Part shown: one piece after another, positions 7,587 to 33,948 of the stretch | How positions within the stretch are numbered: the stretch's first letter is position 1 | Layout of the letters: the number at the start of each line of letters is the position of its first letter | Assembly (NCBI GenBank): GCA_039096225.1 | Contig: JBBPEB010000004.1 | Location: forward strand, 1,274,001-1,338,000 | From: Blastocystis sp. Blastoise | Lineage: Eukaryota; Sar; Bigyra; Opalinata; Blastocystidae | Length of the DNA stretch: 64,000 bases | Direction: 5' to 3' | The notes under the pieces: model-generated | The model's database searches: none | Told to the model about the DNA's origin: nothing | Seen by the model: only the letters and a program-made list of their open reading frames with translations | Made by a program: the position numbers and the translations under genes

Positions 7587-8750
7587 TTAATAATATTCAG
7601 GAGAAGAAACAGGATAAACAGGAGAAGTAGGAGGTGAAACCCTTTCATCATAATAAGGAGGACTTGAGAGATCCTCGTCACTTTCATTCTCCTGATTATT
7701 ATTATTTAAAGAAACTATCAAGTCATAATAGAATTTAAATTATAAAAATATTTACCTTGATTTGTTGGACATGTTGAAAATCTGTTTTTATTTGCAAAAA
7801 GAGTTGTGTTGTCTTTAAATATAAATTTATTTGTTATTTCTGAGTCTGTAGTACCTATATATATTTTAGGTTGTTTTCACATCAAAACATACCTTCACAA
7901 TTAATAGTAAATAACTTACTATTAAAAAATGTTTTCTCAAGGGTGTTTTTGTAGTTATTATTATCTAAAGACGAAACAATAAAAATATTTTTATTATTTT
8001 ATTAGACAATAATATACCTTTGTCTCCCTTGTTGTTAAGACAAAAGCAAGATGTATGAAACTCAAAAGTATTTTCAACTCTTTTACAATCTATATATATG
8101 ATAATATATTTTGTAAGTTAATGAAAATATTTTCGAGATCAAACATATCAAAAACAAAAGTGTGTAATATTAATTCGCAATAGCAAATAATTTACAACAC
8201 AAAAACAAAGCAAACACATATAAAATATAAAACAACAACATTCTATTTTGTATCTTATAGTTTAAATGATATATTTAAAATATTATATGAGTTCATAAAC
8301 TTTAAACTATATAAAGAGACATCATGAACTTTTATAAAGCAGAGTCGGGCATTTTATATAGGTTAAACTCAATAACAAATATATATATTCAAGTAAATTA
8401 TAAGAAAACAAAATAAAATAGAAATTGTAAAATATTTAATAATGTGAGAAATGAAAATGGAAAAGAATAAAAATAGAAAAATATTTAAGAAGAAAATATT
8501 TAATAAGAATAGATGAAAAATATCACAACATAAGAAAAATTAAAAAAAATTAAAAAGAATACTCGAACAATTTATATTAAACAAAGAGGACACATTATGT
8601 TTTTTATTTTTTTTGTATTTGAATTGTATTTCATCATCTTGTGAGTCTAAGAATAATAATAGATATATTATAAAACTAAAAAGATACCCTCGAATGAATT
8701 GTTGCTTGAACGCTTTTTTGAACTACTTTTTGACAGTGTTCGGCGGCTTT
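7587..8750 (-). CDS. Micro-exon gene, 3' part: exons 21-26 with Cys motif
   Basis: Final six exons of the gene that starts at 33,948: 8,688-8,750, 8,563-8,646, 8,018-8,089, 7,893-7,964, 7,756-7,854 and 7,587-7,714. Lengths are 63, 84, 72, 72, 99 and 128 nt. Introns of 41, 38, 53, 473 and 41 nt all have GT-AG ends and all fall in phase 1, and the joined frame ends at TAA 7,587-7,589. The protein here has a basic Ser/Lys stretch (SKSSSKKRSS), then INCSNCKRVENTFEF, HTSCFCLNN and LFTINCEG, then an acidic/proline tail ending PVSSPEYY. Cys pairs CxxC and CxC suggest metal binding; the CxxC pair exists only after splicing. I do not recognise the family. Exon boundaries agree exactly with phase, so the model is strong, but expression is unproven. 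Confidence 0.78.
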
Positions 8751-8753
8751 CTA

Positions 8754-8788
<35 letters not shown>

Positions 8789-8791
<3 letters not shown>

Positions 8792-8940
8792 GCATTGTTA
8801 GAAATACCCAAAAAATACCATAATTATTTTAACCTACCCAAAAAAAAAACGAATTGTTAGAAATACCCAAAAATATTTAAAATTTTTGTTAAAATACCCA
8901 AAAATTTTACAAAATTGTTAGAAATACCCAAAACTTTTTC
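8789..8940 (+). repeat. Left terminal inverted repeat with four subterminal motifs
   Basis: Four copies of TTGTTAGAAATACCCA or a one-step variant lie at 8,795-8,810, 8,854-8,869, 8,886-8,900 (GTTAAAATACCCA form) and 8,915-8,930. The spacings are 59, 32 and 29 nt. Repeated subterminal motifs are typical transposase-binding sites; that role here is inferred. Confidence 0.75.
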
Positions 8941-9448
8941 AAGACTCTAAACGATTGGTACTTTGAAAACACAAATTTCTTAATAACCAATTAAAATTCT
9001 TTTTCTTTATTTTGTTAGAATTAGAAAAAAAAACTCCAGAATATTTTTATATTTGATTTATTATATTTCACAAGTGAAGCTTATACTATGTAAGACATTA
9101 AAAAAATTTAATAAATTCTCATAATAATGAAGAAAAATAACTATCTAAGTTAAAACCAGCATTTCATTTTACATATTTTATATAATTGCTAGAATTTTTA
9201 AACTAAATATAATATAAATATTTCAGATACTTTTATCAATTGACTGGAGTCATTTATAATGTAATAATATATAGTACTGCTCTCAAATAAAGCATTTAGA
9301 AAACAACAATGCTAATTTTCCTGATTTTTTGGTGATTTTCCTCTATAAAAATAATATTTGCAGTTATAAATCACCAAAAAATACATTTATTTATTTTTCA
9401 CTATATCTACACGACTAAAAAGTTAATTACTACAAATTGTCGGCAACT

Positions 9449-10472
9449 ATGTCTGTATATAGACGAAAAACACATTTTCATTATTATTTTTTAATAATTA
9501 GACAATTGATTCAAGTCAGCCACAAGAAGATGTGGAAAATCGTTTTTGTATGAATAAGGTTGATTACAGTGACTTCAAAAATAGTGAAGAAATTAAGAAA
9601 TTTGAAAATGAAGAAACATATGGAGTACAAATTATGTACGAAAATAAGTCTAAACTCAAAAGTGATGTCTCAATTCAAATGCAAAAGCTAGGATATCCAA
9701 TTAAGGTTCAAAAATCAGAAAAAGGAAGAATTATTTACAAATGTTGTGTTTCCGATTGCCCGTTTATGCTTCATTTCCAAGGTGACGACGTTTCTGGATG
9801 GATAATGAAAAGATACTGTCATCATGACTCAACTGTATGTTATTTAATTAATTATTATAGTTTATACTTATTATTAATATAGAAATGCAATCGTTTTAAT
9901 ATGATTTACATTAAGCTTAACAAACAAAATAAAATAGATTATCAAATTATTAAGACAAGTAACTAAATATAAATATAATATATAATGTATATAATATTCT
10001 ATTATATACAGTGATAAAAAATCGAATTAAAAATCATCAATTTAATATAAGGTATATATATATATCAATATATAAATTGTGAGAGAGAAATCTATACATT
10101 GAATAAAGAAGGAAAAAGAGGAAAATAAATATATAGAGAGAAAAAAATGAAATACAGTAGTATATGTATGTGAAAAGTGTTATATATTAATTCAATGTAT
10201 GAGAGTAATAGAAGAAATATCCACCTATATATATAGAGAAAGGAAGATTATATAATATATACAGAGAGAAAGAAAGAAAGAAAAATTCTATTATATATAT
10301 AGTAAGAATGAAAGAAAGAAACATTTATGAATATATAAAGAGAGAACGACAGATATATATATATAGAGAGAGAGAGAGAAAGCGATAGAAAAAAATATCT
10401 AATATATATATATATATTGAGAGAGTAAGAGATGGAAGAGATAGAGAGAGATGCATAGAAAGAAGCAAAGAA

Positions 10473-10533
<61 letters not shown>

Positions 10534-12805
10534 TAAGTCTTAATCCAATGATTCTATCAAAAGATGCTAGTAATAGTAATGATCAAAATCATGAAGATGA
10601 AGCTGAGATACATGAAACTATCAATTTTACACACAATTCTCGGAGCTCAGATGCTAATTCTAATCCTACAAATACCCAAACTCTTCCTATCTTAGAAGAT
10701 CCATTCATATCTAGTAAAAATTCTGAAATGGTCATAGAAGATATAAATAAATCAAAGGATAATAATCATGAAGATGAAGAAAGTAGAACAATTGATATAG
10801 AATTGAATATTGAAGATACATCAATAGATAATGTGTTTTCTTATGAAGAACAAAATGAAGGAATTACAGAAGATAGATTTAATAATATATTTAAAGATAT
10901 TTCTGATAAATGTATATTTATTCAATATAAGTCACATAAATACAATCAAGATATAAGCTCAAATGATGTTGTGAGTTATTTAAAGGAAAATAATCTAGCC
11001 AAGTATTTCAAATCAATATCTCAGTTAAAACAATTCCTGGAGAAGAAGAATATCAGTGTTTCATATGAAATAGCAAGAAACGCCTTAAGAGAATTAGGTA
11101 TTAAGTCAACTAATGACTATAGTAAAATACCATGTATTATAAAAAGTATAATAAGCAAAGAAAATTATGCTATATATGGTTGCCTCCCTCCAGGATATAC
11201 ATATAAGAATATTAATGCTTATCCTTCTTCTTCTTATATTCAATCTAATATAGATGAGAATATAGTAGATAATCATTTAGAACAAGATGAAACTTTCAGA
11301 GTAAACTTGGAAGATAGTGTTCTGAATTATTCTGAAAATGATTCAGTTTGTAGTGGAAATAATTCCAATATGAATATACATGAAGAAATAAACATGGATA
11401 GAGAATTAAACAAAGCAGTAGGGAATAATAAAGTAATAAGTCATGAGTTTCTATATTCTTTTGTATCTATTAAATCAAATATAGCATTATATAAGAAGGG
11501 AAATAAAGCAGTAATCTTTATGGATGGAACTCATATGTATATGAATGATCATATCATATTAACTGCTATATCCATTACTATTAATAGACAAATACTTCTT
11601 CTTGCTTATGGTATATATGCTGTAGAGTGTTTAGCTACCTGGAGTGATTTCCAAACTAATCTGAAAAAAGCACTTGAACTCATGTCATGTAAAACTACAA
11701 ACATAACATTTTTCTCAGATATGGACAAAGGTCTCAAAGGAAGCCTAGGAGTAGTCTTTCCTGAATGCACATATATATCATGTGCATTTCATATTCTAAA
11801 GAAGATGACAAATGTGAATTCAAGAATAATAGGACTAATATCACAACTCATTCTAATTGATGATGAAGAAGAATTCTATAAGCTTATTAATGATTCTTCA
11901 ATAACAGAGAACCAGAAGAAGCAAATACTCTCACAAAGGGGAAAGAATATGTATAATATAGATCTACCACCTCATGTATCCAGATATGGATACATTGCCT
12001 CAAGTTTGGCCGAGTCATTTAATAATCTTATTAGTGACATAAGAGGAATGTCTATACAGAAGGTATTGTTTGAAATCTATAATCATGCAATTAATTATCA
12101 ACTGAAAATAAAAGAGGCACCTCATATATCATTCTTTCTTCCTTACTTTCAAAAAGAGTTTGATATGGCTGATATATTTGTTTCTAATGTGATATCATAT
12201 AAGAGTATAAATAAGGGTTTATATAGACTAGTAATGGAAGAAGAAAACCGTGAATACATAATTAATTTTGAACAGAATACATGTTCTTGTTCAATTTTTC
12301 AATACCAAGGTTATCCTTGTATACATGCTATTCTTCTATATAAAAAGTATAATAGCAGTGTTTCGTATAATCAACAAGGAATTGACGATTTCAATACTAT
12401 TGCCAAATACTTCATTCCATATAAGAACCATATGAATACTTATTATAATTATTATGTAGATAGGTAATGATATATATAATACATATTATATAAATATTTT
12501 TTTTTGTTATATATAGAAGAATAGATGATTCATGCTTGAAAGAAGAAAGTCACATAAATATTACAGGACCAAATAATCCAATTCGTAAATCAGGTCGACC
12601 ATCTAAGTTTAACTATTCTCATATAACATCTTATTATCTGAAAAATAAGTATTGGAAAATAAAGAACAGTATTCCAGCTTTGGAGTGTTTGAATGAGTGT
12701 GCAGTTGAAGCTGAAAAAGAGAAATATGAAGAAACTGATATTGCCTCAATTCCTACACTTGAAGATGTAGAATCATCAGAATATAGTTCGAAGAGAAGAA
12801 AGTAG
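9449..12805 (+). CDS. MULE (Mutator-like) DDE transposase, 6 exons, 892 aa
   Basis: Transposase of the surrounding element. Exons: 9,449-9,454 (ATG TCT), 9,502-9,834, 9,883-9,958, 10,012-10,051, 10,529-12,463 and 12,517-12,805. Every junction is GT-AG and the frame is preserved to TAG at 12,803. Residues about 80-110 form a Cys/His DNA-binding finger (KCCVSDCP ... CHHDST, FLYWCH/WRKY-GCM1-like). The catalytic MULE domain shows FMDGTHMY (about 482), FFSDMDKGL (about 548), the CxxH of SCAFHILKK (about 570) and LAESFNN (about 646). A SWIM zinc finger CSCSIFQYQGYPCIHA lies near 736. The C-terminus carries a basic GRPSKF motif, AT-hook-like. Intron 4 (477 nt) is TA and GA repeat. No frame break is visible, so the enzyme may be functional. 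The first two exons are the least certain. Confidence 0.88.
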
Positions 12806-13094
12806 TATTTTTTAAATGATAAGTCTATGTATATACTTATTATAATCTATAATACATATTAATTTTTTTACATTCCTAATAATATAAAATATTTTTAATT
12901 AATCATATTTAATATAAATGTCTTCTTATTTATAAGATCATTGTTTTGTTATTGATTCAAATATAATATCATATATGTCGTTGATATTGCAGATATTCAT
13001 ATTAAAGAGACTAAGACTAATAAAAAAGAATACTCATCAACGGATATAAATCCAAAATGAAACCAGCTAGAGTAATATGTATTACAAATTATTG
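12806..13094. other. Spacer after transposase gene
   Basis: AT-rich sequence between the transposase stop and the start of the purine-rich tract. No feature seen. Confidence 0.5.
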
Positions 13095-14747
13095 CATATG
13101 CAAATAAATGAAAGAGGACAAGAATAAGAAGGAGAAGGAGAAGGACAAGGACAAGGACAAGGAGCAGAAGAAGAAGGATAGGATAAAGATAAGAAGAAGG
13201 ATAAGGATAAGGATAAGAAGAAGAAGTAGAAGGAGAAGGATAAAAAGGACAAAGATAAGGATAAGGATAGGAGAAAGAAATGACAAGAAGAACGATAAAA
13301 AAAGAGAATGGCAGAAATAAAAGAAAAAGAAGGAGAAGGAGAAGGAGAACAAGAAGGAAAATAAGAATAAACCAAGAATAAACATAATAAGGAAAACATC
13401 AATAGAAGGTAAGGATAAGTAGAATGAGAATGATTAGAAGTAGAAGCATAAGAATAATAATACGAAGAAGACGGAGAAAGAGAAGCATATGTGGGAGTAG
13501 AAGAAAAAGCATGTGAATAAAAATGGAAAAAGAAGAAACTAAAAAGAGAATAGAAGGAGAGGATCAAAATATGAATAAGAAGGAGAAGGATAAGAAGGAT
13601 AAGAATGACAAAGAGAAGGAGAATAAGAAAGAAAGAACGAGAAAGAGAAGAAGGAAAAAAATAAACAGAAGAAGAAAGAGAAGGAGGAGAAGAATGAGAA
13701 GAAAAAGAATAGGAAGGAGAATGACAAAAAAAAACAAGAATGACAAGAATGGCAAAAGGAAAAAGGAGAAGAAGACAAATTATAGAAGGAGGAGAAGAAG
13801 AAAAATTATAGAAGAAGGAGAAGAAGAAAGATTAAGAAGAAGGAGAAGAAGGAAAAGGAGGAATCAAAAGAAGGAGAAGGAGGAAGGAGAAGAAGATGAA
13901 AAAATAAAATTATAAGAAGAAAAAGTAGAAGAAGAAAGAGAAAGAGAAGAACCACAAAGAAAAGGGGGAGAAGAAAGAAATTATAGAAGTAGAAGAAGGA
14001 AAAGAAAAGAGAAAAAGGAGAAAGAGAATAAGGACAAGAATAAGGTAAAAGTAAAAGTAAAAGAATCAATAGAAGAAAAAGTATGAGAAGAAGAATATTG
14101 AAAAGGAGATAGAGAAGTAGACGAATAAGTTGAGATAAAATGAGAAAGAAGAAGAAATAAAAGTATGGTAGTAGAAACAGAAGTAGAAATAGGTAGAAAT
14201 AGATGGAAAAGGAAAATGAGAATCAGTAGAAGAAGAAGAAGAAGAAGAAGAAAATGAGAAAGAGAAGAAGAAGAATGAGAAATAGAATATAGAAATGAAA
14301 TAGAAGAAACAAGAATGAAAGAAGTAGAAGAAGAAAAAATAATACTAATAATACGAATGTGAATGAGAATAAGAAGAAGAAATAGAAGAATAGCAATAAT
14401 GGAATGAAAATGAAAAAAAAAAGAAGAAGAAAGAGAAATAGAAAAAGAAGAACAAGAAGTAGTTGTAATAGAAATGGATGTAGAAGCATAAAAAAGTAGT
14501 AGAAGCAAAAGTAGGAGTAAGAGTTGAAGTTGGAGTACAAGCGAAGTAGAATAGAAATATAAGTAGAAATATAAGTAGAAGAATGAGAAGTAGTATTAGT
14601 AATAGTGTAGAAGTCGAAATGGAAGAAAAAAATAACAGTAAGTAGTAGTAGTAGAAATATGAGTAGAAGAACAAGTATAAATAGAAGAATAAAGGAAAGA
14701 AGGAAAGAAGCTGAAGTAGAAGAAGTATAAGGAAAAGAAGGTAAATA

Positions 14748-14780
<33 letters not shown>

Positions 14781-17700
14781 TAAGGAAAAGAAGGTAAATA
14801 TAAGAATAATAATAATAATAGTAAGGAGAAGTAGTAAAAAAGAAGAAACAGAAGAATAAGGAGGAAGAGGAAATGAGATGAATAAAGAAAAGTAAAAAGA
14901 AGTAAAATATTGAGAAATAGAACGAGAAGTAAAAGAATAATAAAAAACAAACTTTAATAAGTATGGATAGAAGAAAAAGAAAAAGAAAAATAATGAGAAA
15001 TAGAATAAAGAGATTGAAAATGATAAGAAAAAGGAAAGCATGAAAGATAATAGGAATGAGAATAAGAAGAATAAGTAGAAGTATAAGGAGGAGTATAAAG
15101 AAAATGGAGATAAGGAGTAGAAGCAGAAGGAGAAGCTAAGGTTGAAGAAAAATAGAAAGGATGATAATAAGAAAGATAAAAGAAATAGAAGGAAAACGAG
15201 AGTGTGAAGTAAAATAAGAATAACAAAAATAAAAAGAAGCAGAAGGAAAACAAGAAGAACTAAATGAAAATGAGGAGAGGAAGAATTTGAAAAAGAAGAA
15301 ATATAATAAGAAGAATAAGAACAAGAAGAGGAATCACAAAAATAAAAAGAAAGATACTACAAATAAAAAGAATACTGAGGAAGACAAAATATAGAGTAAA
15401 AAATGATATAGAAGAAGCAGAAGATAGTGAATAAGGAGAAGAAGAAGATAAAGTAGAAGAAGAAGTAGATCGAGAAACAGAATAAAGGGAAATGAAAAGT
15501 AGAATGAAAATAAGTAAGAAAATAGGAATATATAAATAAGATGTAGAAGAAAAATTGAAGCAAAATGAGACGAATTTAGAATAAAACAGAATACGTTAAA
15601 TTAGAAGAATATGAAGAATAAAAAATGAGAAGCATACAAGTAGAATAATGAGAAATAGACAAGCCTGTAGAAGAAAGGCAAAAAAAGAAGAATCTGGAAA
15701 AAACAAGAATAAGAATAGAATAAGAATAAGAATAAGAATAAGAATGGAATAAAAACTGACTGAGAAAGTACTAGAAGTAGTAGAAGTAGTAGTAGTGTAA
15801 ATAGACTTAGACTTAGACTTAGAAGCAGAAGGAGAAGCACAATTATGTATGTATAAATAGAAGAAACAAAGTATAAGTAAAATAGGAAAAAGAAAAGGCG
15901 AATAGATGAAGTATAATTATAAATATAAATAGAAGAATGAGAAAGAGAATATGAATAAGAATAGATGAAGTATAATTATAAGTACAAATAGAAGAAGAAA
16001 TAGAAGAAATAGAAGAAAAATATAATAGGAATAAGGAGTAGAATTAAAAGAGTCTAATATAAATAATAATAAAAAGAAGTTATACTAGTATAAGTAGATG
16101 TAAAATGATGAATATAAGTTGATAAACAAGAAGTACTAGAAGTAGAAGAATAAGTAGAAGTAGAAGAAATCGAATTATAATAGAACTAAAATAAAAAGTA
16201 GACGAAAAAGAGTAGAAGTTCAAATTGAAGAATAAGAATTAATAGTAGTACGAGTACATGTAAAAGGAGAAGTGAACGTAGAAGGAGAAATAGTCATAAG
16301 TAGTGGTAGTAGAAGTAAAGAACAAGAAGAAGAAGAAGAAGGAAAACTAGAAAGTATAAGTAGAACTAGAAGTAGAAAAGAAAGTAGAAGTAGACGTGCA
16401 TGTATAAATAAAAGTAAGAATAGAAGCACGAGTACAATGATAAGTAGAATTAGAATAAGAATAAATACTAGTAGAAAGAAATAGGAATAAGAATAATAAC
16501 AAGTAGTAATAGAACTAGTAGTAGTAGTAGAAATTGGAATAAGAATGAAAGTAAGTAATAATATAAGTACAAGTAAACAAAAAGTATAAGTACAAGTAGA
16601 AATAGAAGAATAAAGTAATGAATGAAAAAAAACTGAAGAAGACGAAGTATAAGGAATAGAATAAGAACAGAATAAAAAAGGAATGAAAATAATAATAATG
16701 ATGTAAAAACGTGAAAAGAAGGAGAAGAATAAAGAAAAGGAAGAGAGACTATATAATTAGAAAGAGAATGAGAAGTAAAATAAGAAGAACAAGAACTAAT
16801 ATAAATAGAACGATAATAAGAAATAGAAGGAGAAGGAGAATATCAAAAAGAGAGTGAGAATGAGAAGAAAAAGGAAAATATGAAAGATAATAGGAATAAG
16901 AATAAAAAGGATAAGTAGAAGTACAACGAAGAGAAAGGAAAATGAAGAGAAGAAGTAGAAGCAAAAGGAGATGATGATGTTGAAGAAAAACATGTTGGAG
17001 AATAATAATAAACCACATAAGGAGAAACAAAAGGAAAAGAAGAATTTGATGTAAAATAATAAGTATATGAAAAAAGGAGAAGCAGAAGGAAAATGAGTAG
17101 ACTTAAACTGAGAATACATGACAGAGAATTTGAAAAAGAAGAAATAGGATGAGAATAGTAGGAAAAAGAGAGGAATGAGAATAAGAAATAGAATGACGAT
17201 ACAAATAAGAAGAAGAAAAAGAAAATATAGAGAAAAAAGATGATATAAAAGAATGAGAAGATAGGGAATAAGAAGAAGATAAAAAGTAGAAGAAGAAGAA
17301 GAAGAAGAAGAACCAAAGCTAGAACTAGAACAAAGAGAAGGAAAAGTAGAAGTTTAAAAAAGAAAGATAATAGGAGAAAAAGTAAGAATTAGAATAAGAT
17401 ATAGAAGGATAGTGAGAAGAATTTGGTGAAAATAGAATACGCAAAAGTAGAAGAATATATATAAATAAAAAGTGAGAAGTATACCAGCAGAGTAAGGAGA
17501 ACTAGACAAGAAAGTAGATACAAGTAAAAGAAGAATTTGGAGAACAATAAGAATAAGAATATGACTAAGAGAGTAGTAGTAGAACCATAAGAGAAGTATG
17601 AATAGATGTAAAAGTATAAATGAAGTAGAAGGAGAACAATAAGTATGAGTAGAACCATATGTATAAGTATAATGAGAATAAGAATAAAATAAGAAAGATG

Positions 17701-19451
17701 ACAATATGAAGTGTTAGTAGAAGGAAAATGAGATAAATAGTAGAATAAAAAGAAGAATATTAAGGAGAGAAAGTTTAGAAGTGGAAGGAGTACAATAAAA
17801 ATAAGAATGAAGTGAATAAGAATAGGAATAAGAAGAATAAAAAGGAGAAATGAAAATAGAAGGAGAAGAAAGAAGATATAAAGGAGAATAATAATAAGTA
17901 GAAGGAGAAATAAAAAATAAGTTTAATAAGAATGAAAATAAGAATAATAGAATAAATTGAAGATAGAAAAGTATAAGAAAAGAAGGAAGAAGAAGGAAAG
18001 TGATAAGATGAAGAATTAGAATAAATAATAAGAAAATGAAGAATACGAATAAGGAGTATGATAAGCAGAAGTGAATAAAAAGAATGAGAAATGGAAGGAC
18101 AATACTAATAATAATAATAAGAAAAAGAAGATACAAAAGGAGGAGGAGAAGAATGAAAAAAAGTTAAGGCTAACTAGAAGCAGAATAGTATAAAGATAAT
18201 GATAATAAGATTGTAGAACAAGAAATAGAAGTAGAATAAGAAGAGAAATGATTAGGAAGTATAAGTAAAGTAAGAAGAGAAAGATATCATGAATAAGAAG
18301 AGAAAGATATCATGAATAAGAAGAGAAAGATATCATGAATAAGAATAAGAATAAAAAATGAAGTAGAAATACAAGCAGAAATAGAAGTAGAATAAGAGTG
18401 TAAAAATAAGGTGAATAAGAATAAAATGTGGAAGATGAAGAAGTAGTAAAAGTTGAGTGAATAGTAAAGAGAAATGGAAAGTAGACACTAAGGCTTATGA
18501 AATGAAAACAAAGGAATAACACCAGAAATAAGAAGTAGAATTAGAATAAGAAGGAAATTAAGAATGAAATGCTGAAGTAGAAGAAGAATTAACAGGAGAC
18601 AAGAATAAGTAGAAGGCGAAGCAGAACGAGAATAAGCGTAAAAATAATAATAATTAAAGAATAATATCAATTAAAAGAAGGAAAATAGGAATGAGAAGTA
18701 AAATAGAAATTACAATAAAAAAAATAAGTAAAAGTAACTAGATAAGCAGAATGAAAATATGAATAGTATGATGAAGGGAAAGGAGAATGAGAAAGTCGCA
18801 TATGAAGGAAAGCGAGAAGTAGCACGAGGATAGTAATAAAAATAAGAAAGAGAAATTAAAAAATAAGGAGACGTGGAATAAGAAGGAGAAAGTGAGATAT
18901 ATGGAAAAACTAAATAAGAAACAAAATATTAAGTAAAATAAGAAGTAAAAAAAGAAGTAAAAAAAGAAGTAACAACAATATATGAAAAAGAAGAAGTTGA
19001 AGAAGTTGAAGAAGGAGAAGAAAAATAAGAATAAGAGAAATATATCTAAGAATAATAAAAAGAAGATGACAATAACAAGGAGAAGTAAATTTACAAGGAG
19101 AAAAAAAAAGAAAGGAAACATAAGTGAAGAAGGAGAATAAGGAGAAGTAGAATAAGATGTACAGGTGAAGAAGAATAAGTAGTAGACGTAAAGTAAGAAG
19201 AATAAGAATAAGAATGAAAGGATAAGAAGAAGGATAAGAAGAAGAAGAAGAAGAATGAAAAGGAAAGGATAATTAGAAGTATAATAATAAAATATAATAG
19301 TAGAATTCGTGAAGAGGTAATAGTTATGAAAACAAATAAAGAAAAATTAATATCTATACAAAAAAGAAGAAAAAGATGTAGTAAGAAGTGTATTAGAATG
19401 AAGAATGAAGAATGAAGAATGAAGAATGAAGAATGAAGAATGAAGAATGAA
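13095..19451 (+). repeat. 6.3-kb strand-asymmetric tract, almost free of C on the + strand
   Basis: For more than 6 kb the + strand is made of GAAGAA, AGTAGAA, AATAAGAA and AGGAGAA variants with very few C residues, so G versus C skew is extreme and sustained. The numerous ORFs on either strand (Lys/Arg/Glu-rich on +, Ser/Phe/Leu-rich on -) follow directly from this composition, overlap in several frames and show no conserved start or splice pattern; I do not call them genes. The tract is degenerate rather than a simple tandem array. It lies inside the giant element. Such DNA can form triplexes or R-loops; any such role is inference. Confidence 0.85.
19395..19451 (+). repeat. 7-bp tandem repeat (AGAATGA)n
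   Basis: About eight near-perfect copies of a 7-bp unit close the right end of the C-depleted tract. It is much more regular than the rest of the tract and looks like a recent expansion. Confidence 0.85.
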
Positions 19452-19696
19452 ATTTTGTAAACCAAAAAATTTAATAAATAAAAGAATAATAAATTGCAAC
19501 TTTCCTAATAGACTAATAATATTTGTAATCAATTTTTTGTTTTATAGAAGAAACAATAAAAATACCACTAGGTCTAAAGAATATATAATATTATAAAAAT
19601 AGAATATTAATAATTATAATATAAAGAAAAAAATAACATATATATTATTAATAGTCAGTTAAAACAAACTAACTATATTATTAAATACATATATAC

Positions 19697-20946: not shown

Positions 20947-21115
20947 ATGGCAAGTGATTATTGTTTTGGAATTTTTGTAACTTTTCGATTTCAGCACAAT
21001 TATCGAGTCCTTAAAAGTATATAAATATATTAAATAATTATTTTTTTCTATAGATATATGGAGTAAATTGATATGGTTATATATACAAAAAAAAATACTA
21101 GAAGAATATGGCTAA
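20947..21115 (+). CDS. Tiny 2-exon gene, 43 aa
   Basis: ATG at 20,947 follows a TATATAG site by two bases. Exon 1 (to 21,016, MASDYCFGIFVTFRFQ ... RVLK) ends at GTATATAA in phase 1. Exon 2 begins at 21,054 after TTCTATAG and reads IWSKLIWLYIQKKILEEYG to TAA 21,113-21,115. The frame agrees across a 37-nt intron. The AAATG context right after an acceptor leaves open that this is the 3' part of a larger gene. No family recognised. It lies 88 bp downstream of the previous small gene. Confidence 0.4.
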
Positions 21116-21894: not shown

Positions 21895-21977
<83 letters not shown>

Positions 21978-22863: not shown

Positions 22864-22906
<43 letters not shown>

Positions 22907-23624
22907 TTTTCTTTATATTTTCCAGCTTTCTTTTCTATTATATACATTTATACTCACTATAGTGTACTATTATTAATATATATAGTTTGTGAAGATATTA
23001 AATAGATTCTACGTAAAGAGTATGTATTTTAATTGTTTTAATACATATACATAATATGTTCCTATGTTATATTTAAATATATATATTTTTTACTTTATAT
23101 ATATATTTTTCTCATAATTACATATATGTATATATTCATATATATATATATATAGACTTGGTATTCCCTTAATTAATTCATGCCGTCTTATTCATTCATT
23201 TTATATATATAGTCTATAATCAGCTTTTATGAATTATTACAAATAATGTATACAATCCTTTTGTATGTATTTTATTTATATTTATATAGCTTGCTATGTA
23301 GTATTTTCTATTATAACAATATAATGTGTTTATTTTATTTATATATATATTAATTTTTTTTTAATCTATATATAGAACGTATCTTTAGCTTATCTTCTAT
23401 GTTCGTATACAACTTAATATAGATAGTATATATTGTATATATTTATTATATATATTGTTTGCTAATATTCTATTTTTAACTTTATTCTTAATTACATTAT
23501 ATTCTATTGTATATTGAAATAATCTTTTTATTCTACATGTTTTTATTATTTAGGTTAGTATTAATAGGTGTAATAGAGTATATATATATATAATTACAAT
23601 ATTTTTATAGTCTCTTTTCTTCAA

Positions 23625-23657
<33 letters not shown>

Positions 23658-23676
23658 TATTCATATAATTAATATT
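21116..23676. other. TA-rich cargo with scattered exon-like blocks
   Basis: Mostly (TA)n and T-rich DNA, including a long pure TA run at about 21,899-21,974. A few blocks sit between TATATAG and GTATAT. One at about 21,559-21,616 could read NVTFPLCYKLHGHQFLYL, and one at about 21,857-21,896 VLYKYTNVALVEE. I could not chain them into one gene, so they are noted only as possible micro-exons. Confidence 0.4.
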
Positions 23677-23744
23677 CCTTAGACTGAATATGGTCAGTAG
23701 CAATCATTAATAGATTGCTATCAGGTTCAATTCCTGATCTAAGG
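23677..23744 (+). tRNA. tRNA-like sequence, 68 nt, anticodon unclear
   Basis: The arms CCTTAGA and TCTAAGG pair perfectly (7 bp). Between them lie a D-arm-like CTGAATATGGTCAG (4-bp stem, GG in the loop), an 8-bp stem TAGCAATC/GATTGCTA with 7-nt loop ATTAATA, and a T-arm TCAGGTTCAATTCCTGA containing a B-box match. Unlike a normal tRNA there are no bases between acceptor and D-arm, no variable loop, and the anticodon stem is too long. It may be a decayed or non-canonical tRNA, or a tRNA-derived element. Confidence 0.55.
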
Positions 23745-25265
23745 TTGTATACTATATTTTTTATAAAAAAATTTAAATGTTTTTTCCCTATAGGTATTCT
23801 CATTCATTAGAACCAATATGAATAAATACATTGAGTTTCATGCAATTGAATCAACTCTATACGTCGTTAGTCGCTCTTTTATAATAATTTTAGATACCTT
23901 TACTTAAAACCAAACACATTCACAATTACAATCACCCAAAATTATCTAGTCATTATTTTGTTGAGTTATGTATCCTATTCATCAATTTTACACACAAATA
24001 AAAAATAAATATTCATCAATAATATCTTGAAGTCTATAAACACGCAATACATTATTTGTTTATACTCTTAAAAGGCATTTCTACTGTTTATATTAATATG
24101 ATTGACACTAAGAATCATTTCTAACCAACTTTAAAAACTTTTGAAGAACCTTAACAAATTTACATTACCTAAAAAACTATTATAATCAACTTTGGCTTAT
24201 ACGAGTCATGATTAAATTTAAATTATTAATAGAAATTCATAATAAAGGCATTCTATCTCAACATATCACCAAGAGAAATCAATTATGTTTGTAACTTCCC
24301 TAAAATTAAATTAATTACTAAAAGACGTATTTTAATTAATGTAGAATTCAAATTCAAACACACATAAACTCATCATTTCTGACAATTTTACACATTTAGA
24401 CAATCTAGTGAGTATCACATAATCAACTAATTCTTGTTGTCTTCATCAAGTCTAACGATTTCCTTATGACAAGAAGCATCAATTTTATTTTATTCAACAC
24501 TCTATAAATAATTAATCAATTAACTAATTTTATTTACTTAAATACATACTCCAATAACAACAACAAGACATCAGGAGTGAGAATAACTGATTAAACTATT
24601 TAAATAAAATAATTAATAATAAAAAGTAGAAATATTAGGATTTTAATAATTTTTAATAAGTTAATTTATAGTGAAGTTTCAATAATCATATAAAAAATAT
24701 GATTAATTTAGCTTTTGTATGTTCTAAGCATATATCTATCTATATATAGTCCCTAGGAGTATATTAGAGTACCTTCCAGTCTCCATTGGCAGATTGATCT
24801 AAACTGGTATGTTCTCTTTCTCTATTATGAGCTAATCTAGGTGATGTAAAGTGGTTGTACTAGATGGTCAGCTATTGTGTCGTGGTTATAAATGGGATGA
24901 TGTGACGTCACCATATAAAACTATTTCTTTAGGTTTTATCAATGAGTGGGAAATGCTTGGCTATGTTAACTGAGCGTTGCTTGAAACTTTCAAAAAATCA
25001 ATTGGTCAAATGTCTAAACAGATTTGTCTTGAATCATACAGAATCATGATCTATTCACATAATCACTACATCTACAATTCAAATATTCATATTTGAAGTT
25101 ACTTGGTTTAACTCATATTCTGATTCTAGATGTATATATTTTCTACATTTTTTTTATATAAATATAATTATATAATTATATTAATGTTTATATAGGTTGT
25201 TATATAGCTATTAAATCTAGTTCTTGCTTTTCTTGTCACTAAATTCTTGGTTCTTCTCTTTTATG

Positions 25266-25296
<31 letters not shown>

Positions 25297-25451
25297 TATT
25301 ATTAACTTCTTATGTTTTGATTTTATAATATAAATTTCTTAATTTTTGAAAATTATTTCTATTTATACATATTATTAGTTTCTTCTATGTACTTATTTGA
25401 AGTTTTTATTAATATTAATTTATGCACTTTTTTCTTTTTTTTTAATTATAT

Positions 25452-25488
<37 letters not shown>

Positions 25489-25590
25489 CTATTTCTATAT
25501 ATATTTGGTTTTCTTTTTGTCTATATTTGCCTTCTTTTCCATTTTATTCTTATTAATTTCTTTGTTATACTTTATATTTTTCTTATAGTC
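23745..25590. other. Higher-complexity non-coding stretch in the element
   Basis: Mixed-composition DNA without a usable ORF. The part at 24,750-25,080 has the highest sequence complexity of the giant element's cargo, including the palindrome TGACGTCA at about 24,903, and has GT/AG-like sites, but no frame stays open through it. I cannot assign it. Confidence 0.4.
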
Positions 25591-25593
25591 ATC

Positions 25594-27450
25594 GTGTTGA
25601 TTCGGGTAATTGTTACTACTATTAATACTACTCAATATCACATTTCATTATATAATATACCTTTTTTCTTTAGTTCTTACTTATCATTCTCCTTACATTC
25701 TTCTTATCTTTCCTTTTTGTGTTCTCCTTCTATAATTACATCTTCTCTTCATTTCCACCTCTATATCTTAATCTTCTTGTTCTTCTTCATTTTCTTCTTA
25801 TGTCATTACTTCCTTTTCATATCTTTCCACTTCTACTTTTCTATTCGCTATTCCTTTTAATTCTTCATCTAGACGTTCTTTCTATATTCCTTTTTCTTTT
25901 ATATATCCTTATTCCCCTTCTCCTTTTCTGTCTCCAATATTCTTTTCCTACTCGTTCTTCTTCATCTATTTATCCTTATGCTTCTATATCTTGTATATAC
26001 CATTCTTTTGCTTCTCAATCTCAATCTCCTTCTCTCAATCTCTTCTGTATCTCTTCTTCTTCCTCTTCTTCTATATATCCTTATTCCCCTTCTATATCTT
26101 ATATATATCTTTATTCTTCTTCTATATCTTATATATATCCTTCATCTTCTATATATCCTTCGTCTTTATATTCTTTTTCTCTCTATATATCCTTCGTATA
26201 TATATTCTTTTTCTCTCTATATATCCTTCCTCTGCATTCCTTCTTCTATTTGCCATTATTCTTCTTATACATTTTATCTATATCATTCTCCTCCTATGTT
26301 TTCTATTTTTTCTATATATCCTTATTCTTATCTTTCCTCTTCTATATATCGTTTTTCTTCTATATATCTTATTTTTGCTTCTTCTTCTATATATCTTTCT
26401 TCTTCTTCTATTTATTGTTCTTATTCTTCTGTATCCTCTATTTATCATTATTTTCCATAGTATTCTTCTACTGTATCTTCTTCTTGTCTCTTTCTTCTTC
26501 TTAAATATCTCCTTCTTCTCCTTCTTTTCTTCTATATCTTCAATATACCTTTCTTTATCTATATATTTTGATGTTCATTATTTCTCTATATATCTTTATT
26601 CTCCATATTCTTCCGTATCTTCTTCTTCTTTTTATGCTTCTCTTTATTCTCCTTCTATATATCTTTCTTTTCCTTCTTTTCCTTCTCAGTCTCCTTCTCT
26701 TCATTTTATCATTCTCTTTCTCTCTATCTCTATCTCTTTCTATTTCTATATCTTCTATATGTACTTTTTCTTCTTCTTCTTCTATATATCATTATTTTCC
26801 TCCTCCTCCTACTCTTCCTTCTTCTTTTATCATCATTCTTCTACTTCTTCTATCATTTCCTTCTTCGATTTCGATATCTCTATATATCATTTTTCTCCTT
26901 CGTCTTCTCCTTCTTTACTCTTTATATTATTCTAATTTTATTCCTTTTCATCTATTTCCTCTTTATCTCAATATTCTCTCGATTTATTACACATAATATC
27001 AATTATATATATATATATATATAATCTTTTATACTCTTTTTCTTTCATCATATACTATCTTTTTTCCTACATTTACACTTGTACTTCCTATGTGTACTCT
27101 ACTTATATTTTTATTTCCTTCTTAATTTATTCTCCCTTGTTCTTCTTCTAACTCTCTTCTCTATCTGTTTTCTCTTCTTCTCCTATACATGACTTTTTAT
27201 TATCCATCTATCTTTCTTTTCTTCTTACCTTCTTATCTTATTTTTTACTCGCTTCCTATTCTTATTCTTCTTCTTTATATATATGCTTTTTATTCTCTAT
27301 CCTATTAACTAACTCCTCCTTCTTCTTCTTCTCATTTACTTAATATTTTTCTTTTTCCTAATTTATTTTCCTATATTCTTCATATTCATGTTTTCATTTT
27401 TTTATATTCAATTCCTATCTTTTATCATCTTATATCTATATATATACTTC
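25594..27450 (-). repeat. C/T-rich tract (purine-rich on the minus strand), about 1.9 kb
   Basis: The + strand is almost only C, T and A with repeated TTCTTCT and CTATATATC blocks and few G residues, the mirror of the 13.1-19.5 kb tract. The overlapping Ser/Leu/Phe/Tyr-rich ORFs in all + frames are by-products of composition. Together the two tracts face each other across about 6 kb of TA-rich DNA. Confidence 0.8.
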
Positions 27451-27606
27451 TCTCCATATTTAAACTATTTCTATCTACTATACTAATTAATATAGTATTT
27501 ATTTTTATTAATAAAAAGATTTTATCCTTTTTATTTCTTATTTATACTTATTATTTTATATGTTTCTTGTTTATATATTTAATTTATATATTAAAATAAT
27601 TTTTTC

Positions 27607-27650
<44 letters not shown>

Positions 27651-27783
27651 GCAACAGTAATATGTATTCTATTTGATAAATATATATGAAAGAGATAAGT
27701 ATATATTTATATATCTATATTATTGATTCATCTTTTTTAGATATATATATTAAATATTGTATTTTATTATTATTTATTATTAC

Positions 27784-27851
27784 TCTTATGCTCTATAAGG
27801 TGAGAGGCTATCATAATTCGATAACAATCAGGTTCAACTCCTGACATAAGT
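27784..27851 (+). tRNA. tRNA-like sequence, 68 nt, anticodon unclear
   Basis: Arms TCTTATG and CATAAGT pair over 6 bp with a terminal U-U mismatch. The D-arm-like CTCTATAAGGTGAGAG, an imperfect anticodon-like arm around ATAATTC and the T-arm TCAGGTTCAACTCCTGA follow in tRNA order. Length and the absence of bases between acceptor and D-arm match the other 68-nt copies. Probably degenerate. Confidence 0.45.
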
Positions 27852-29059
27852 CATTCTATATATATATATATATTTTTTTTTATTTAATAAACGTTTTAAT
27901 TATATGTTCTTTTTACACTTATTAATGTATTTATTAAATTATTTATAGCTCTTCATCCTTCAAAACTTCATAGTTTCTGAAATGAGTTGTAATCTGTTTT
28001 ATTCTCAAAAGTGTAGCTTATTCAAAATATGTTTGAATTGAGTTAAATACAGTTTTAAAACTTAGATTCATTTTTTATTTTCAAAATATACTCAAATACA
28101 GAGTATATTCAGCAATCATTAATACTTTAACGACTGTAGTTTATTATTTTTAACTGAATTCTGGTCAGTATACTCAATACAAACAACTAAGTACAATACA
28201 TACGTATTCATGATTTTTAAACAACATTTTTCCATTTCGACATTTACTTGATCCATTATAAAACTATTTGTCCTTTTGATATAGTAAAGAAAAACGAATA
28301 CCATATACCAAACAAAACGTTTTAACTTGAATCTCGTCATCTATTAAATATTTTTCTTAATCAATTCACAGTTCATACTCTTAAAACAGTTATTTAAGAT
28401 TAATATTTATGTATTTGTCCTTATACAATATTTTCATGACACTGTAATAATATATATGAAAATTAAAAGAGTCAAGAAAATCTGTTAATTATCAAAAAAT
28501 AAGTTCTATTTACTAAAATCATATTTATAAGATTTATAAACTTATACCATATAAAAACATAGCTCTTATATAAAGTATTGGCTGAATTAGTTTATTTGTA
28601 AGTAAATTAAAAGTATGTTATATAACGTAATTTTAGGTTACTCTTTTTAATCAGATTTATTTCATAGCTATTTATGGTTTATTTGTCTGTTAATCTTATT
28701 TTTTAAAACAATTACAGACAATTATATTATGATCCTTGTCTATTAAGTTATTTTATTGAATTAATAGTATAAATAAAAGTTATATAACAAAATAAATGTA
28801 TATATTGATTAAAATAAGGAATGAATATAAATAAATAAAAATAGATAAAATTGCCAAAAAGCAAATTCTTAGAATTATATAGTACAATAGACGAACTTCT
28901 AATAGAAACTTAAAAATCGATTGATTGGATCAAATAGTCAAATCCTAACGTCATAATATGAATTATTCTTTTCATTTTTTATTAATTTAAATTCTTGAAA
29001 TACATCTAATAAACACGGTTATTATATAAATTAATACGATTGGACAACGAAATCAAAAT
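27852..29059. other. Right inner part of the giant element
   Basis: AT-rich mixed sequence leading to the right inverted repeat. Apart from the small ORF at 28,119-28,340 I see no feature. Confidence 0.4.
28119..28340 (-). CDS. Hypothetical 73-aa protein with one membrane segment
   Basis: A single-exon ORF with ordinary amino-acid diversity: basic start (MTRFKLKRF), hydrophobic VWYMVFVFLYYI, then KRTNSFIMDQVNVEMEK and a second hydrophobic part YVLYLVV. It is not composed of repeats, unlike most ORFs here. No family recognised and no splice support, so chance is possible. Confidence 0.3.
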   Translation of the reverse strand: MTRFKLKRFVWYMVFVFLYYIKRTNSFIMDQVNVEMEKCCLKIMNTYVLYLVVCIEYTDQNSVKNNKLQSLKY

Positions 29060-29154
29060 GTTAACAGAAATTTTTGGGTATTTCTAACAAATCATACAAA
29101 AAATTGGGTATGTATACAAATCAATAGGGAAATCTGGGTATTTCTAACATTTTT

Positions 29155-29157
<3 letters not shown>
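29060..29157 (-). repeat. Right terminal inverted repeat of the giant element
   Basis: Read on the minus strand it gives ATGTTAGAAATACCCAG, then ATACCCAAT and TTGTTAGAAATACCCAAAAA, matching the left end in order and approximate spacing. Copies lie at 29,075-29,090, about 29,105 and 29,135-29,150. A pure TA tract starts immediately outside. Confidence 0.75.
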
Positions 29158-29225
<68 letters not shown>

Positions 29226-29766
29226 TTTTCATTAGGGAATGCTTTGATCGCTTACATTCAGCTATATATATAGTATAGTATATATATATATATTAGTATA
29301 TAATATATATGCATATACCATTATTTGAAGTATGATTCAATTCATTATCTATATATATAGTGTTGATATATAATGTTATATATATATACCTTCGGTCAAT
29401 GGTTTTGATCCTGAATCTATATATATATTATAATATGATATAACATAATATAATATTATATATACATTGAATCAATGGTTTTAATCCTGAATCTATATAT
29501 ATAATAAGTATAATATAATATAATATAATATAATATAATATATACCTTGAATCAACGACTTTGATCCTGAATCTATATATATAATATAATATAATATAAT
29601 ACATATATATAATATTATATATATATATACCTTGAGTCAATAGCTTTGATCCTGAATCTATATATATAATATAATATAATATAATACATATATATAATAT
29701 TATATATATATATACCTTGAGTCAATAGTTTTGATCGTGAATCTATATATATAATAAGTATAATAT

Positions 29767-29837
<71 letters not shown>

Positions 29838-32613
29838 GAGTCAATAGTTTTGATCGTGAATCTATATCATTACTATTATAAAGCAAATAGGCAAAAAAAT
29901 TCCCATTGGTCAGTTTTTGGAAAATTCATTTGATTGGCTACTATATACTAGAGTTTGTACCCACAACTCCTCTAAACTTACGGGGAGTTAACTTTTGGTT
30001 GAAACACAGTTCAATACGATATAACGTGTAGTTGTGCACCGTATATTTGGTTAAGCGATATTATTAATAATTAAAAAGTTATTAATAAAAGAACAGAAAA
30101 CATGATTTTTGAGTCGTTTTTGATTGGCTCTTTGGGATGACCCCGATAAAAATTGTTGACCAGACAATTGGAAAATAAACATGGGGTAAACTTGATTTTT
30201 TCTCAATCCCACAATATACGTTATCCGTGTTTATTCTTTATATTTATCTATTTTTAAAGACTTTTTCATATTGAACACGTGAGGCCTTAACGGTCAAATT
30301 TAGATTGTTAATTTGACATCATATTCTGATTCAGGAGGTCAAAAAACCTAGGTGTAGCGATTTTCAGTTCCTGAGGACAATTTTTGAGTGATCGATATTT
30401 TCATCGATCTTCTTATAATCGACTAATATTACAGTATTGTAATTGATAGGTCATCAAACTACTATAGTAGAAACAAAGTTTTTAAATAACGAGTTAAAAA
30501 GTGACAATTTTGAAAAAATGTGAATTAAGTGGTCTTAGAGTGAGAGATTCAATATAATGACTTTTATTTAATAAACTATAGTTATAACTCCATACTATAT
30601 TAAAAGAAGAGTCAAAATTATGATGGTCAAAATATATGAGCAAATGACAAAATGTGTCTTAAAAAGTAAAATGGCTTCTATATGTGTTTAGAATCATGTA
30701 TTAAGTATATTCTATGAATAAGAGCTTTAAATAAATAGTTTAAGGTTGTCAAATTCAAAAGAATGTGTAAAACATAGTCTTAGACTTTGAATAAAAAATT
30801 TAGAGATATTAATTAGTGTACAGCTATAGTAGCTCTACAACATATCAAAAGTACAAAGAAAATAATTTTTAGAGAGTGGATGTGTGAGGTGTTGTGACTA
30901 TTATTTAAAATTTATTTTTACTTCTGTTTGAGCAAAATCGTGAATTTCGTGCACTGTAGAAAAATTGAGTCAAAAGGTCAACTCTAAGGGTCTTAAATTT
31001 AAAAAAATGTAAAAATAAGTGACTTAGAGGACGAGATTCAATATTTGAGTGTTTATTCATTAAACTAGAGTGTATGACCTATATTATGTTAAAAGAAGGG
31101 ACAAAAATATTTTGATCAAAGTGTATGACCAAATGGTAAAGTGTCTTTAAAAAGTCTAAAGTGATGACTAATATGTTTATGGTGTCTTATAAAGTCTACT
31201 ATGTAAATATTAGCTTTTAAAAATATGTTTAAGCCTTTCAATTAGTAAAAATATGTTCAAAGAGACTCATAAAATGAGAATTTTAAGAAACGAGATATTG
31301 TTCAGTATACACTAAGAGACACTCTACAACATATCAAAAATATAGCAAAAACTATTTTTAGAGAGTGGATGTGTGAAGGGTTGTGTGAGTTATTGAAAAA
31401 ATATTTTTCACTCAGTTTATCCAAAATTGTGTTTTTGGAACACTGTAGAAAAATTAACTTCAAAAATCAACTCTAAGGGTCTTAATTTTTAAAAATGTGA
31501 AAATGACTGACTTAGAGGACGAGATTCAAAATTCCCTCTCACTTTCATATAACTAGACCACACACTCTATATTATATCAAAAGGAGGGACGAAAATATTT
31601 TGGTCAAAGTAAATGAGCAAATGCAAAAGGTTTATAAAATGTTTTAAAGTGATGACCAATGTGTAGCTATGGTCATATTAAGTAAACTATGTAAATATTA
31701 GCATTTAAAAATGAGTTTAAGTGTGTCAACTTTTCATAATGTGTCAAAAAGGGTCTTTAAGACAGAGATTCAAAACATTTACTTTTATTTAATAAATAGT
31801 ATGATAAACTCTATACTATACCAAAAGACTGAAGGAAACTGTTTTGATACAGTGGATCTTGAATGTGTAAAGTCTATTTAAAAGTCACTTTTTCGAGTCA
31901 TTTATGATTAAAATAAGTATTTGAGACAACTGAAGAAATATTAACTTTTTAAACCATGTTTTATTAGTCAAAGTTAGAATGAATGCTGACTTTGTTATGA
32001 TTAAAGCTTTCTAATTCTTTTAAAAAGTATGAAAATGAGTTTAAATCATTATATTACGTTTATTTAAATAAATTTTATGAATTAAAAATACTCAAGAGTA
32101 CTTCACATTGTGACTCATTTCTAAAGTTGTTGACTTTAAAAACTCAAAAAATGCTTAAAACAGTTGTTTAATTATTTATAAATACAAAATATATTTTTAA
32201 AATAATAAATAATATATAATAATACAAATTTCGTTTTTAGTATCTAAGAAATTCTTTTAGTTTTTTAAATATTATTAAAAAGAATCTAAAAGATACTTAT
32301 ATCAGGAATTGAACCTGATTACAATCATTTACTGATTATAACTCCCCATATAGAGTATAAGAAATGTAATAAATAATAGATAATAAATAATAATAGATAA
32401 TAGATAATAAATAATAATATATAATAAATGATAAATAATAAATAACAATAGATAATAAATGATAAAAGATACAAAAAGCCAAACATATATGATTTTATGC
32501 AGCCGCGGTCCGGGGCCGTTAGGCACTGGACCTGCGGCGTGACCCTAGTATATAATAAGTATAATATAATATAATCTAATGTATACCTTGAATCGACGGT
32601 TTTAATCTTGAAT

Positions 32614-32656
<43 letters not shown>

Positions 32657-32796
32657 ACCTTCACTCGATTGTTTTAATCCTGAATCTATATATATAATAT
32701 AATATAATATAATATATTATAATATTATATATATATATACCTTGAGTCAATAGTTTTGATCCTGAATCTATATATAATATAATATAATATAATATA

Positions 32797-32840
<44 letters not shown>

Positions 32841-33058
32841 GAGTCAATAGTTTTGATCCTGAATCTATATATAATAAAATATAATATAATATATATATAT
32901 ATATAGCATATAAATACCTTGAGTCAATAGCTTTGATCCTGAATCTATATATATATATATATATATAATATAATAGAATATAATAGAATATAATAGATTA
33001 AAAGAATATAATAGAATATAGCATATATATACCTTGAGTCAATAGTTTTGATCCTGAA

Positions 33059-33135
<77 letters not shown>

Positions 33136-33948
33136 ATATAATAGATTATAATAGAATATAATAGATTATAATAGAATATAATAGAATATAGCATATATAT
33201 ACCTTGAGTCAATAGCTTTGATCCTGAATCTATATATATATATATATATATAATATAATAGAATATAATAGAATATAATAGATTATAATAGAATATAATA
33301 GAATATAGCATATATATACCTTGAGTCAATAGCTTTGATCCTGAATCTATATATATATATATATAATATAATAGAATATAATAGAATATAATAGAATATA
33401 ATAGAATATAATAGAATATAGCATTATATACCTTGAGTCAATAGCTTTGATCCTGAATCTATATATATATATATATAATATAATAGAATATAATAGAATA
33501 TAATAGAATATAATAGAATATAATAGAATATAGCATTATATACCTTGAGTCAATAGCTTTGATCCTGAATCTATATATATATATATATATAATATAATAG
33601 AATATAATAGAATATAATAGAATATAATAGAATATAATAGAATATAATAGAATATAATAGAATATAGCATATAAATACCTTGAGTCAATAGCTTTGATCC
33701 TGAATCTATATATATATATATATATAATATAATATAGTATAATAGTTTAAATGATTGTATACTTGATAATAATTAATAATATATATATACATACTTTTCG
33801 TATTTATTTTTAGTGGATTTATAAATACGCATAAAAATATTTTATAAGACAAAAATGAAAAGCTAAATAAATATATACCATTATTATTTGAAGATTCAGC
33901 ATCCTCATATTGTGATAATAACGATAAGACTGGACAATCAGATTCCAT
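29226..33948 (-). CDS. Micro-exon gene, 5' part: exons 1-20 including 17 tandem 27-nt exons
   Basis: Exon 1 (33,879-33,948) starts with ATG and reads MESDCPVLSLLSQYEDAESS plus Asn, ending G in phase 1. Seventeen 27-nt exons follow, then a 30-nt exon (29,319-29,348, NELNHTSNN) and a 36-nt exon (29,226-29,261, ECKRSKHSLMK). Each is flanked by TATATAG (one by TATAAG) and GTAT. All junctions are phase 1, so each 27-nt exon adds exactly nine residues, mostly DSGSKLLTQ. The frame then joins exon 21 at 8,750, beyond the giant element. Summed exon lengths (1,113 nt) give 371 codons with the stop. Microexon genes are known in other eukaryotes (for example schistosome MEGs), but I do not recognise this protein. 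Two introns hold transposons, so correct splicing today is uncertain. Confidence 0.75.
30540..31810 (+). repeat. Tandem repeat of about 485 bp inside Helitron H2
   Basis: The landmark GAGATTCAA recurs at about 30,544, 31,027, 31,516 and 31,764. Blocks such as AAAAGAAGGGACAAAAAT, GTGTATGACCAAATG and AGAGAGTGGATGTGTGA repeat in the same order; the last copy is partial. A related single copy lies at 600-1,039. Confidence 0.75.
32295..32362 (-). tRNA. tRNA-like sequence, 68 nt, in Helitron H2
   Basis: On the minus strand: TCTTATA, D-arm-like CTCTATATGGGGAG, an 8-bp stem TTATAATC/GATTGTAA with loop AGTAAAT, T-arm TCAGGTTCAATTCCTGA and closing TATAAGT. The layout is identical in length to the copy at 23,677. 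Position 33 would be G rather than U, so decoding function is doubtful. Confidence 0.5.
32502..32548 (+). other. Helitron H2 3' terminus
   Basis: The outer stem GCCGC-GGTCC pairs with GGACC-(T)-GCGGC, and an inner GCC/GGC hairpin forms within the loop. GTGACCCTAG then closes the element. It is the most GC-rich 47 bp in the window. Confidence 0.8.

Follow-up and report, generated by a model that had tools for sequence, protein, structure and literature searches.

The N-terminus of Helraiser, a Helitron of bats, carries a nuclear localization signal and a zinc-finger-like motif and is required for binding of single-stranded DNA (ssDNA) (PMC4778049). In the 64,000-nt window of the gut protist Blastocystis sp. 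Blastoise analyzed here (contig JBBPEB010000004.1; "the window" is this whole stretch), a string of micro-exons predicted on the minus strand very probably makes up the 5′ half of a transposase gene belonging to a Helitron that looks autonomous. Like Helraiser, the element has HUH and tyrosine motifs, a helicase, a 5′ TC, a 3′ hairpin, CTAG, and an N-terminal part ahead of the Rep-helicase (RepHel) (PMC4778049). Unlike in Helraiser, the N-terminal part here is spread over up to ~40 symmetric short exons, and the arrays that they form are lineage-specific.

The micro-exon genes (MEGs) of Schistosoma have numerous short exons, whose lengths are mostly divisible by three, and introns of 100 to almost 5000 bp; they encode secreted proteins, and transposable elements were noted near their 5′ ends (PMC10526429). 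The Blastocystis gene is similar in its many short symmetric exons and differs in encoding a transposase, in its tandem near-identical exons and short TA introns, and in having no obvious signal peptide as judged by eye. Because it is transposon-borne and its exon 1 has no hydrophobic stretch that could be seen by eye, we do not class it as a MEG. A 1988 report by Davis et al. deals, by its title, with tandemly repeated 81-base exons encoding repeats in Schistosoma mansoni; the units described here are 27 or 30 nt long and sit on a mobile element of a protist. The genomes of Blastocystis ST1, ST4 and ST7 are intron-rich, with mostly GT-AG introns, a GC content of 40-55% and a modal intron length of 30 bp (PMC5608401). 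Our locus is likewise intron-rich with GT-AG borders, but the window has ~21% GC and the array introns are 36-316 nt long.

A first-pass annotation of the window, made from its letters, had called the design one not known to be described. Precedents are known for parts of it, namely micro-exon genes and tandemly repeated exons (PMC10526429), whereas no description of a micro-exon array inside a transposase was present among the literature matches listed, which mostly do not cover subscription journals and preprints.

Micro-exons and predicted spliced frame in the window

The minus-strand gene rebuilt from the window has 26 exons and 25 introns, all of them GT-AG, with all junctions in phase 1. 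The 70-nt ATG exon, the 17 exons of 27 nt and the eight downstream exons add up to 1113 nt, corresponding to 370 codons and a stop, and the 371 codons of the first-pass annotation were thus reproduced. The exons are as follows.

33879..33948, minus strand: exon 1, 70 nt, with ATG and a phase 1 end, MESDCPVLSLLSQYEDAESSNNN
32587..33705, minus strand: micro-exons 1-11, 27 nt each
29390..29861, minus strand: micro-exons 12-17, 27 nt each
29319..29348, minus strand: exon 19, 30 nt
29226..29261, minus strand: exon 20, 36 nt, ending in CKRSKHSLMK; homologous in the diverged copies C10 and C15a
8688..8750, minus strand: exon 21, 63 nt, basic
8563..8646, minus strand: exon 22, 84 nt
8018..8089, minus strand: exon 23, 72 nt, NCKRVENTFEFHTSCFCLNNKGDK
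7893..7964, minus strand: exon 24, 72 nt
7756..7854, minus strand: exon 25, 99 nt
7587..7714, minus strand: exon 26, 128 nt, TAA at its end; probable alternative terminal exon

Each 27-nt exon encodes one nonapeptide, DSGSKLLTQ or a variant of it, and the 17 cores run from 33705 down to 29390. All 17 are preceded by AG and followed by GT on the minus strand. The stricter flanks that had been claimed for every unit (TATATAG before, GTATATA after) surround 12 of them, and the other five deviate slightly while keeping AG and GT. Adjacent array exons are duplicates of each other, i.e., tandemly repeated exons, and five array units in the window recur at 112 nt. The GC content of the window is 20.6% and that of the array exons 35%; array introns shorter than 400 nt (36-316 nt; five copies measured) are 93-94% AT, with ~80% TA dinucleotide. 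Exons of at most 51 nt make up 19 of 26 in the window, 37 of 43 in C10 and 13 of 19 in C15a (not counting the two long exons H1 and H2 described below), and the lengths of internal exons are multiples of three throughout these three models. By their phase, skipping of single array exons would be possible. Exon 1 has seven identical copies in the genome and diverged versions with MECPSLSLLSQYDDE and MEYPLLSLLSQYNQE.

The genome in which the pattern and the copies were searched comprises 33.3 Mb on 34 contigs. It encodes a beta-tubulin identical to WA158_006881 of Blastocystis sp. Blastoise, and Schistosoma as the source was rejected for this reason. The pattern of ATATAG, an exon of 25-34 nt starting with AYTC, and GTATATA matched 140 times, compared to one match for the backwards-read control; among 100 listed matches, 85 fall within Helitron loci and 15 occur singly outside them. 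Scans with Rfam and for tRNAs gave nothing on the array.

Predicted continuation into the Rep-helicase

Downstream of exon 26 lie two long exons within an element whose ends can be defined.

6256..7374, minus strand: exon H1, 1119 nt, with phase-1 acceptor and donor and no ATG common to all copies
1321..6182, minus strand: exon H2, Helitron Rep and PIF1-type helicase, stop TAA
1040..36568, minus strand: whole Helitron, 5′ end at 36568 (A|TC), 3′ end at 1040 (CTAG|T)

H2 contains a Helitron_like_N domain (E 7e-58) and a PIF1 domain (E 4e-61; both Pfam) in one open reading frame (ORF), along with the motifs PHAHI (HUH), KYIFKY (YxxxY) and GPGGTGKT (Walker A). The 3′ end of the element has the hairpin GCATCGGC-GAA-GCCGATGC, then CACCCGCTAG, and CTAG is followed by T at both 3′ ends read (window and C10). 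The alignment of seven copies extends ~2.6 kb upstream from exon 1 and breaks off at a TC, which marks the 5′ end. Their 5′ flanks are of six distinct kinds, the one in common belonging to copies C4a and C4b, which represent one insertion within a segmental duplication. The element has the 5′ TC, 3′ hairpin and CTRR of Helitrons, and no terminal inverted repeats were seen by eye.

With predicted splicing of exon 25 to H1 and H1 to H2 in phase 1, skipping the stop exon 26, an open transposase of 2,321 aa results. Rather than the gene of its own that had been described, the micro-exon string most likely represents the 5′ portion of the Helitron transposase gene. An H1 donor could be located in all of the 11 copies examined except C15b, and in these 10 copies H1 is stop-free and its length is a multiple of three. 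A donor 12 nt earlier was considered and rejected because it brings a stop to the junction; the chosen donor is also implied by a deposited model. The comparisons of H1 start codons and of dN/dS (ratio of nonsynonymous to synonymous substitution rates) used an H1 shorter by these 12 nt, with the frame unchanged.

Where translation starts separates this reading from one in which the 370-aa, 26-exon protein is always made alone, as a separate accessory Helitron gene, and RepHel has its own promoter and start. H1 opens at a conserved phase-1 acceptor with no start codon common to the nine copies compared. At the position of the first in-frame H1 Met of the window copy, five of the nine (C34, C10, C28a, C3 and C4a) have Ile, and a conserved ATG exon between exon 26 and H1 was not found among the copies compared. 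Deposited models bear on both sides of the question; six of the eight deposited Blastoise proteins listed were compared (P0125 and P0127 left out). WA158_000549 (2,088 aa, cluster of 12, from a contig as long as C3) starts with MESDCPVLSLLSQYEDAESSNNN and continues with 19 nonapeptides and then RepHel in one protein, and WA158_003519 (from a contig as long as C15) combines different micro-exon peptides with RepHel. Across two families, deposited models join the parts. In favor of an accessory gene, WA158_006971 (contig C28) starts at a Met inside H1 and has no micro-exons, but this Met is not present in the window copy. Exon 26 itself is also conserved: TAA is kept at its position in C13, C10 and C15a, and TAA together with the two preceding Tyr codons in three diverged lineages. 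Yet the two exons that come next run on in phase 1 into the Rep-helicase without a common ATG, and exon 26 is therefore at most an alternative end, which would probably yield a short N-terminal protein. Taken together, we consider a separate accessory gene unlikely.

Copies, lineages and selection

The array core with its intron has 109 matching places, with loci on C3, C4, C7, C13, C24, C28 and C34, and exon 25 is found at 15 places in the genome. The Rep-helicase of the window has at least 16 matches at ≥97% identity and at least 13 more at ~50%. In 15 of the 16 family copies found, RepHel is preceded on its own strand by exon 25, within ~2 kb in 14 of them and at ~27 kb in C15b, a copy whose H1 is interrupted. 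BLAST of the fetched loci placed H1 downstream of the exons, and RepHel was present wherever the fetched stretch extends to it.

A host gene family that was captured or flanked by Helitrons and contributed the micro-exons would have a known route, as gene fragments are captured and mobilised by Helitrons (PMC4778049). However, in DNA searches exon 1 (7 places) and exon 25 (15 places) occur only at RepHel-linked loci, and the 5′ part of a second Helitron family is likewise divided into many exons. Furthermore, of 8000 candidates scored against the spliced protein, none was a relative at E ≤ 0.01 (candidates limited to 1.75× the query length, which put the 2,088-aa fusion outside its reach), and Pfam and PDB gave nothing credible for the N-terminal region, with three weak Pfam matches, one per member of three, at a best E of 0.032. 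An independent host gene was rejected on account of the RepHel linkage of both exons and the protein search, and we regard a host origin of the micro-exons as very unlikely.

The number of canonical cores is 17 in the window, 16 in C24, 23 in C34, 20 in C3, 24 in C7, 18 in C4a, 17 in C4b, and 6 in each of C28a and C28b. AG and GT flank 147 of 153 core-like 27-mers in these nine paralogous copies; when the half-motifs were paired, the core was exactly 27 nt long in 145 of 145 pairs, with two left halves unpaired. In three cores the acceptor and the donor are both lost (4278 and 4819 of locus L019, and 3916 of the reverse complement of L018), as though the two sides of an exon were silenced at once. 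A donor mutation and missing units distinguish C4a from C4b, and because these two already differ, the arrays appear to change quickly. As the residues of the array vary freely, we claim no selection on the nonapeptide. Exons 21-22 of C34, C3 and C7 are strongly unlike those of the other copies, with phase and splice sites kept. The diverged block of these three copies (exons 20-22 and the next intron) lies between near-identical flanks and may be read as a mosaic formed by recombination or conversion between element lineages.

Different Helitron lineages carry different sets of predicted 27- or 30-nt exons. C10 and C28c have another array, with 30-nt exons for DSSNNPIPSI and variants; C10 has 26 such exons in tandem, 25 of the DSSNNPIPSI type and one variant, and 23 of the 24 spacings measured are 83-84 nt. 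These spacings and the 112-nt repeat in the window point to tandem duplication of an exon together with its intron. The array of C15a is made up of eleven exons, 24-30 nt long and not identical to one another. In manual models, C10 has 43 exons with 557 codons and C15a has 19 exons with 308 codons, counting the stop. The conserved ends can be aligned between the lineages, with exon 1 reading MExPxLSLLSQY on one side and exons 20-26 on the other. In these flanking exons the in-frame dN/dS was 0.32 (C15a/C10), 0.21 (C15a/C13) and 0.29 (C10/C13), compared to 0.93-1.53 in shifted frames, which demonstrates purifying selection on the flanking exons in the predicted spliced frame. The models of C10 and C15a were picked by eye, with phase in part a criterion, but this selection is not the sole basis of the dN/dS contrast or of the deposited models. 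That the micro-exons are coding and separated by TA-rich introns, as had been proposed, is borne out by the open frame and its phases, the flanking-exon dN/dS, copy differences that preserve the frame, and the deposited model with its repeats. A noncoding minisatellite with TA spacers, exon-like by appearance only, would suit the unit structure, the near-identical repeats and the freely varying residues, but is barely credible and was rejected in view of the constant length of 27 nt and the AG/GT borders of 147 among 153 cores, the same phase in relatives of different sequence, the selection on the flanking exons, and the deposited gene model.

In the second family (RepHel ~50% identical; C16 and C20), the long 5′ part has short phase-1 exons, and no tandem array was seen. 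A home-made exon chainer assembled 16 exons in C16, largely matching the N-terminus of the deposited WA158_003899, 15 in C20 and 34 in C10. Because this family has a many-exon 5′ part with no array seen, the splitting of the N-terminus into many exons probably predates the arrays. P0172 (WA158_002607), known here from its protein only, represents a third Helitron family; it is ~42% identical in the Rep region and has GLEGSS-like N-terminal repeats.

Several observations weigh against assigning the micro-exons to the transposase gene. Where an H1 donor is present (10 copies), the H2 acceptor motif was seen in all but C4a, and the sixteenth family copy, close to a contig start on C8, retains H1 only as its 3′ end. 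Over the first 135 codons of H1, dN/dS is 0.44-0.68 in frame, and one shifted frame gives 0.41-0.58 for five of six pairs. Splice sites are lost in six cores, in three of them on both sides, two canonical cores (C7 and C34) contain an in-frame stop, exon 20 of C4b has lost its donor, and C28a and C28b are without exon 1. The base preceding the 5′ TC is A at four and T at two of the six independent sites. The exon chainer, too crude for exons of 27 nt, missed most of the array exons, with 7 exons assembled in C24 and 8 in C15a. Besides the internal start of WA158_006971, the deposited model WA158_000549 skips two exons of the rebuilt one and joins inside the 128-nt exon, and WA158_003519 has an unrelated start without exon 1; the deposited models that differ from the rebuilt ones may be ab initio predictions. 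Some copies may be inactive, because they have cores with stops, lost splice sites or, in C4b, a lost exon 20 donor.

In our model, host-type GT-AG splicing of AT-rich introns would join exon 1, the symmetric micro-exon array, about seven short conserved exons, H1 and H2. Similar introns are found in a host kinase gene, one reading GTATATA...TAG and another GTATTT...TAG (by eye). If splice sites are recognized across the intron, exon size would be unimportant. The product would be a transposase of ~2,300 residues whose N-terminus consists of a variable low-complexity spacer and a basic and Cys/His-containing segment; the basic stretch and the Cys/His segment would be placed where Helraiser has its ssDNA-binding N-terminus. 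Arrays would gain or lose whole exon-plus-intron units by duplication or loss inside the TA repeats, and growth or shrinkage would cause no frameshift because all units are in phase 1. It is conceivable, if doubtful, that the transposon evolves its own transposase by micro-exon amplification, with TA introns as recombination or slippage sites at which phase-1 units are added or dropped, with lineage-specific repeat domains as the outcome, and with the alternative stop exon as the source of a short N-terminal protein, a possible regulator of the full transposase. In any case, the Helitron copies form a natural series: the genes are related, have moved recently and carry arrays of 6 to 26 units made from different sequences at the same place, so that birth, multiplication and loss of micro-exons can be observed. 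They raise the question of whether a spliceosome for short AT-rich introns can join dozens of 27- to 30-nt exons per message, and they illustrate that the N-terminus of a transposase can sit largely in exons that are overlooked by searches for long open frames.

Nested insertions and neighboring features

The window copy is 35.5 kb long because of two nested insertions, without which the Helitron would measure ~12.5 kb (by subtraction).

29866..32560, plus strand: nested insertion 1, 2.7 kb, a non-autonomous Helitron by eye, with a TC start, a GC-rich stretch and a CTAG end; bounds approximate
8788..29160 (approximate), strand not assigned: nested insertion 2, 20.4 kb, with TTAGAAATACCCA-type terminal repeats
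10548-12467, plus strand: MULE/SWIM transposase ORF within the 20.4-kb insertion

The 2.7-kb insertion sits in the array intron between micro-exons 11 and 12. It has internal repeats of ~488 nt, and relatives of it lie in or beside the arrays of C7 and C28. The 20.4-kb insertion occupies the intron between exons 20 and 21 and contains a long polypurine stretch (~13000-19500); an insertion related to this MULE-type one divides the array of C4b. A tRNA-Ile(AAT) is predicted at 27782-27852, inside the MULE-type insertion. It may be repeat-borne, because 23630-23777 and 27707-27851 match the 2.7-kb insertion. Elsewhere in the window, two minus-strand ORFs (52100-53512 and 54338-55297) gave no Pfam match, and the first of them is very rich in Asn and Ser.

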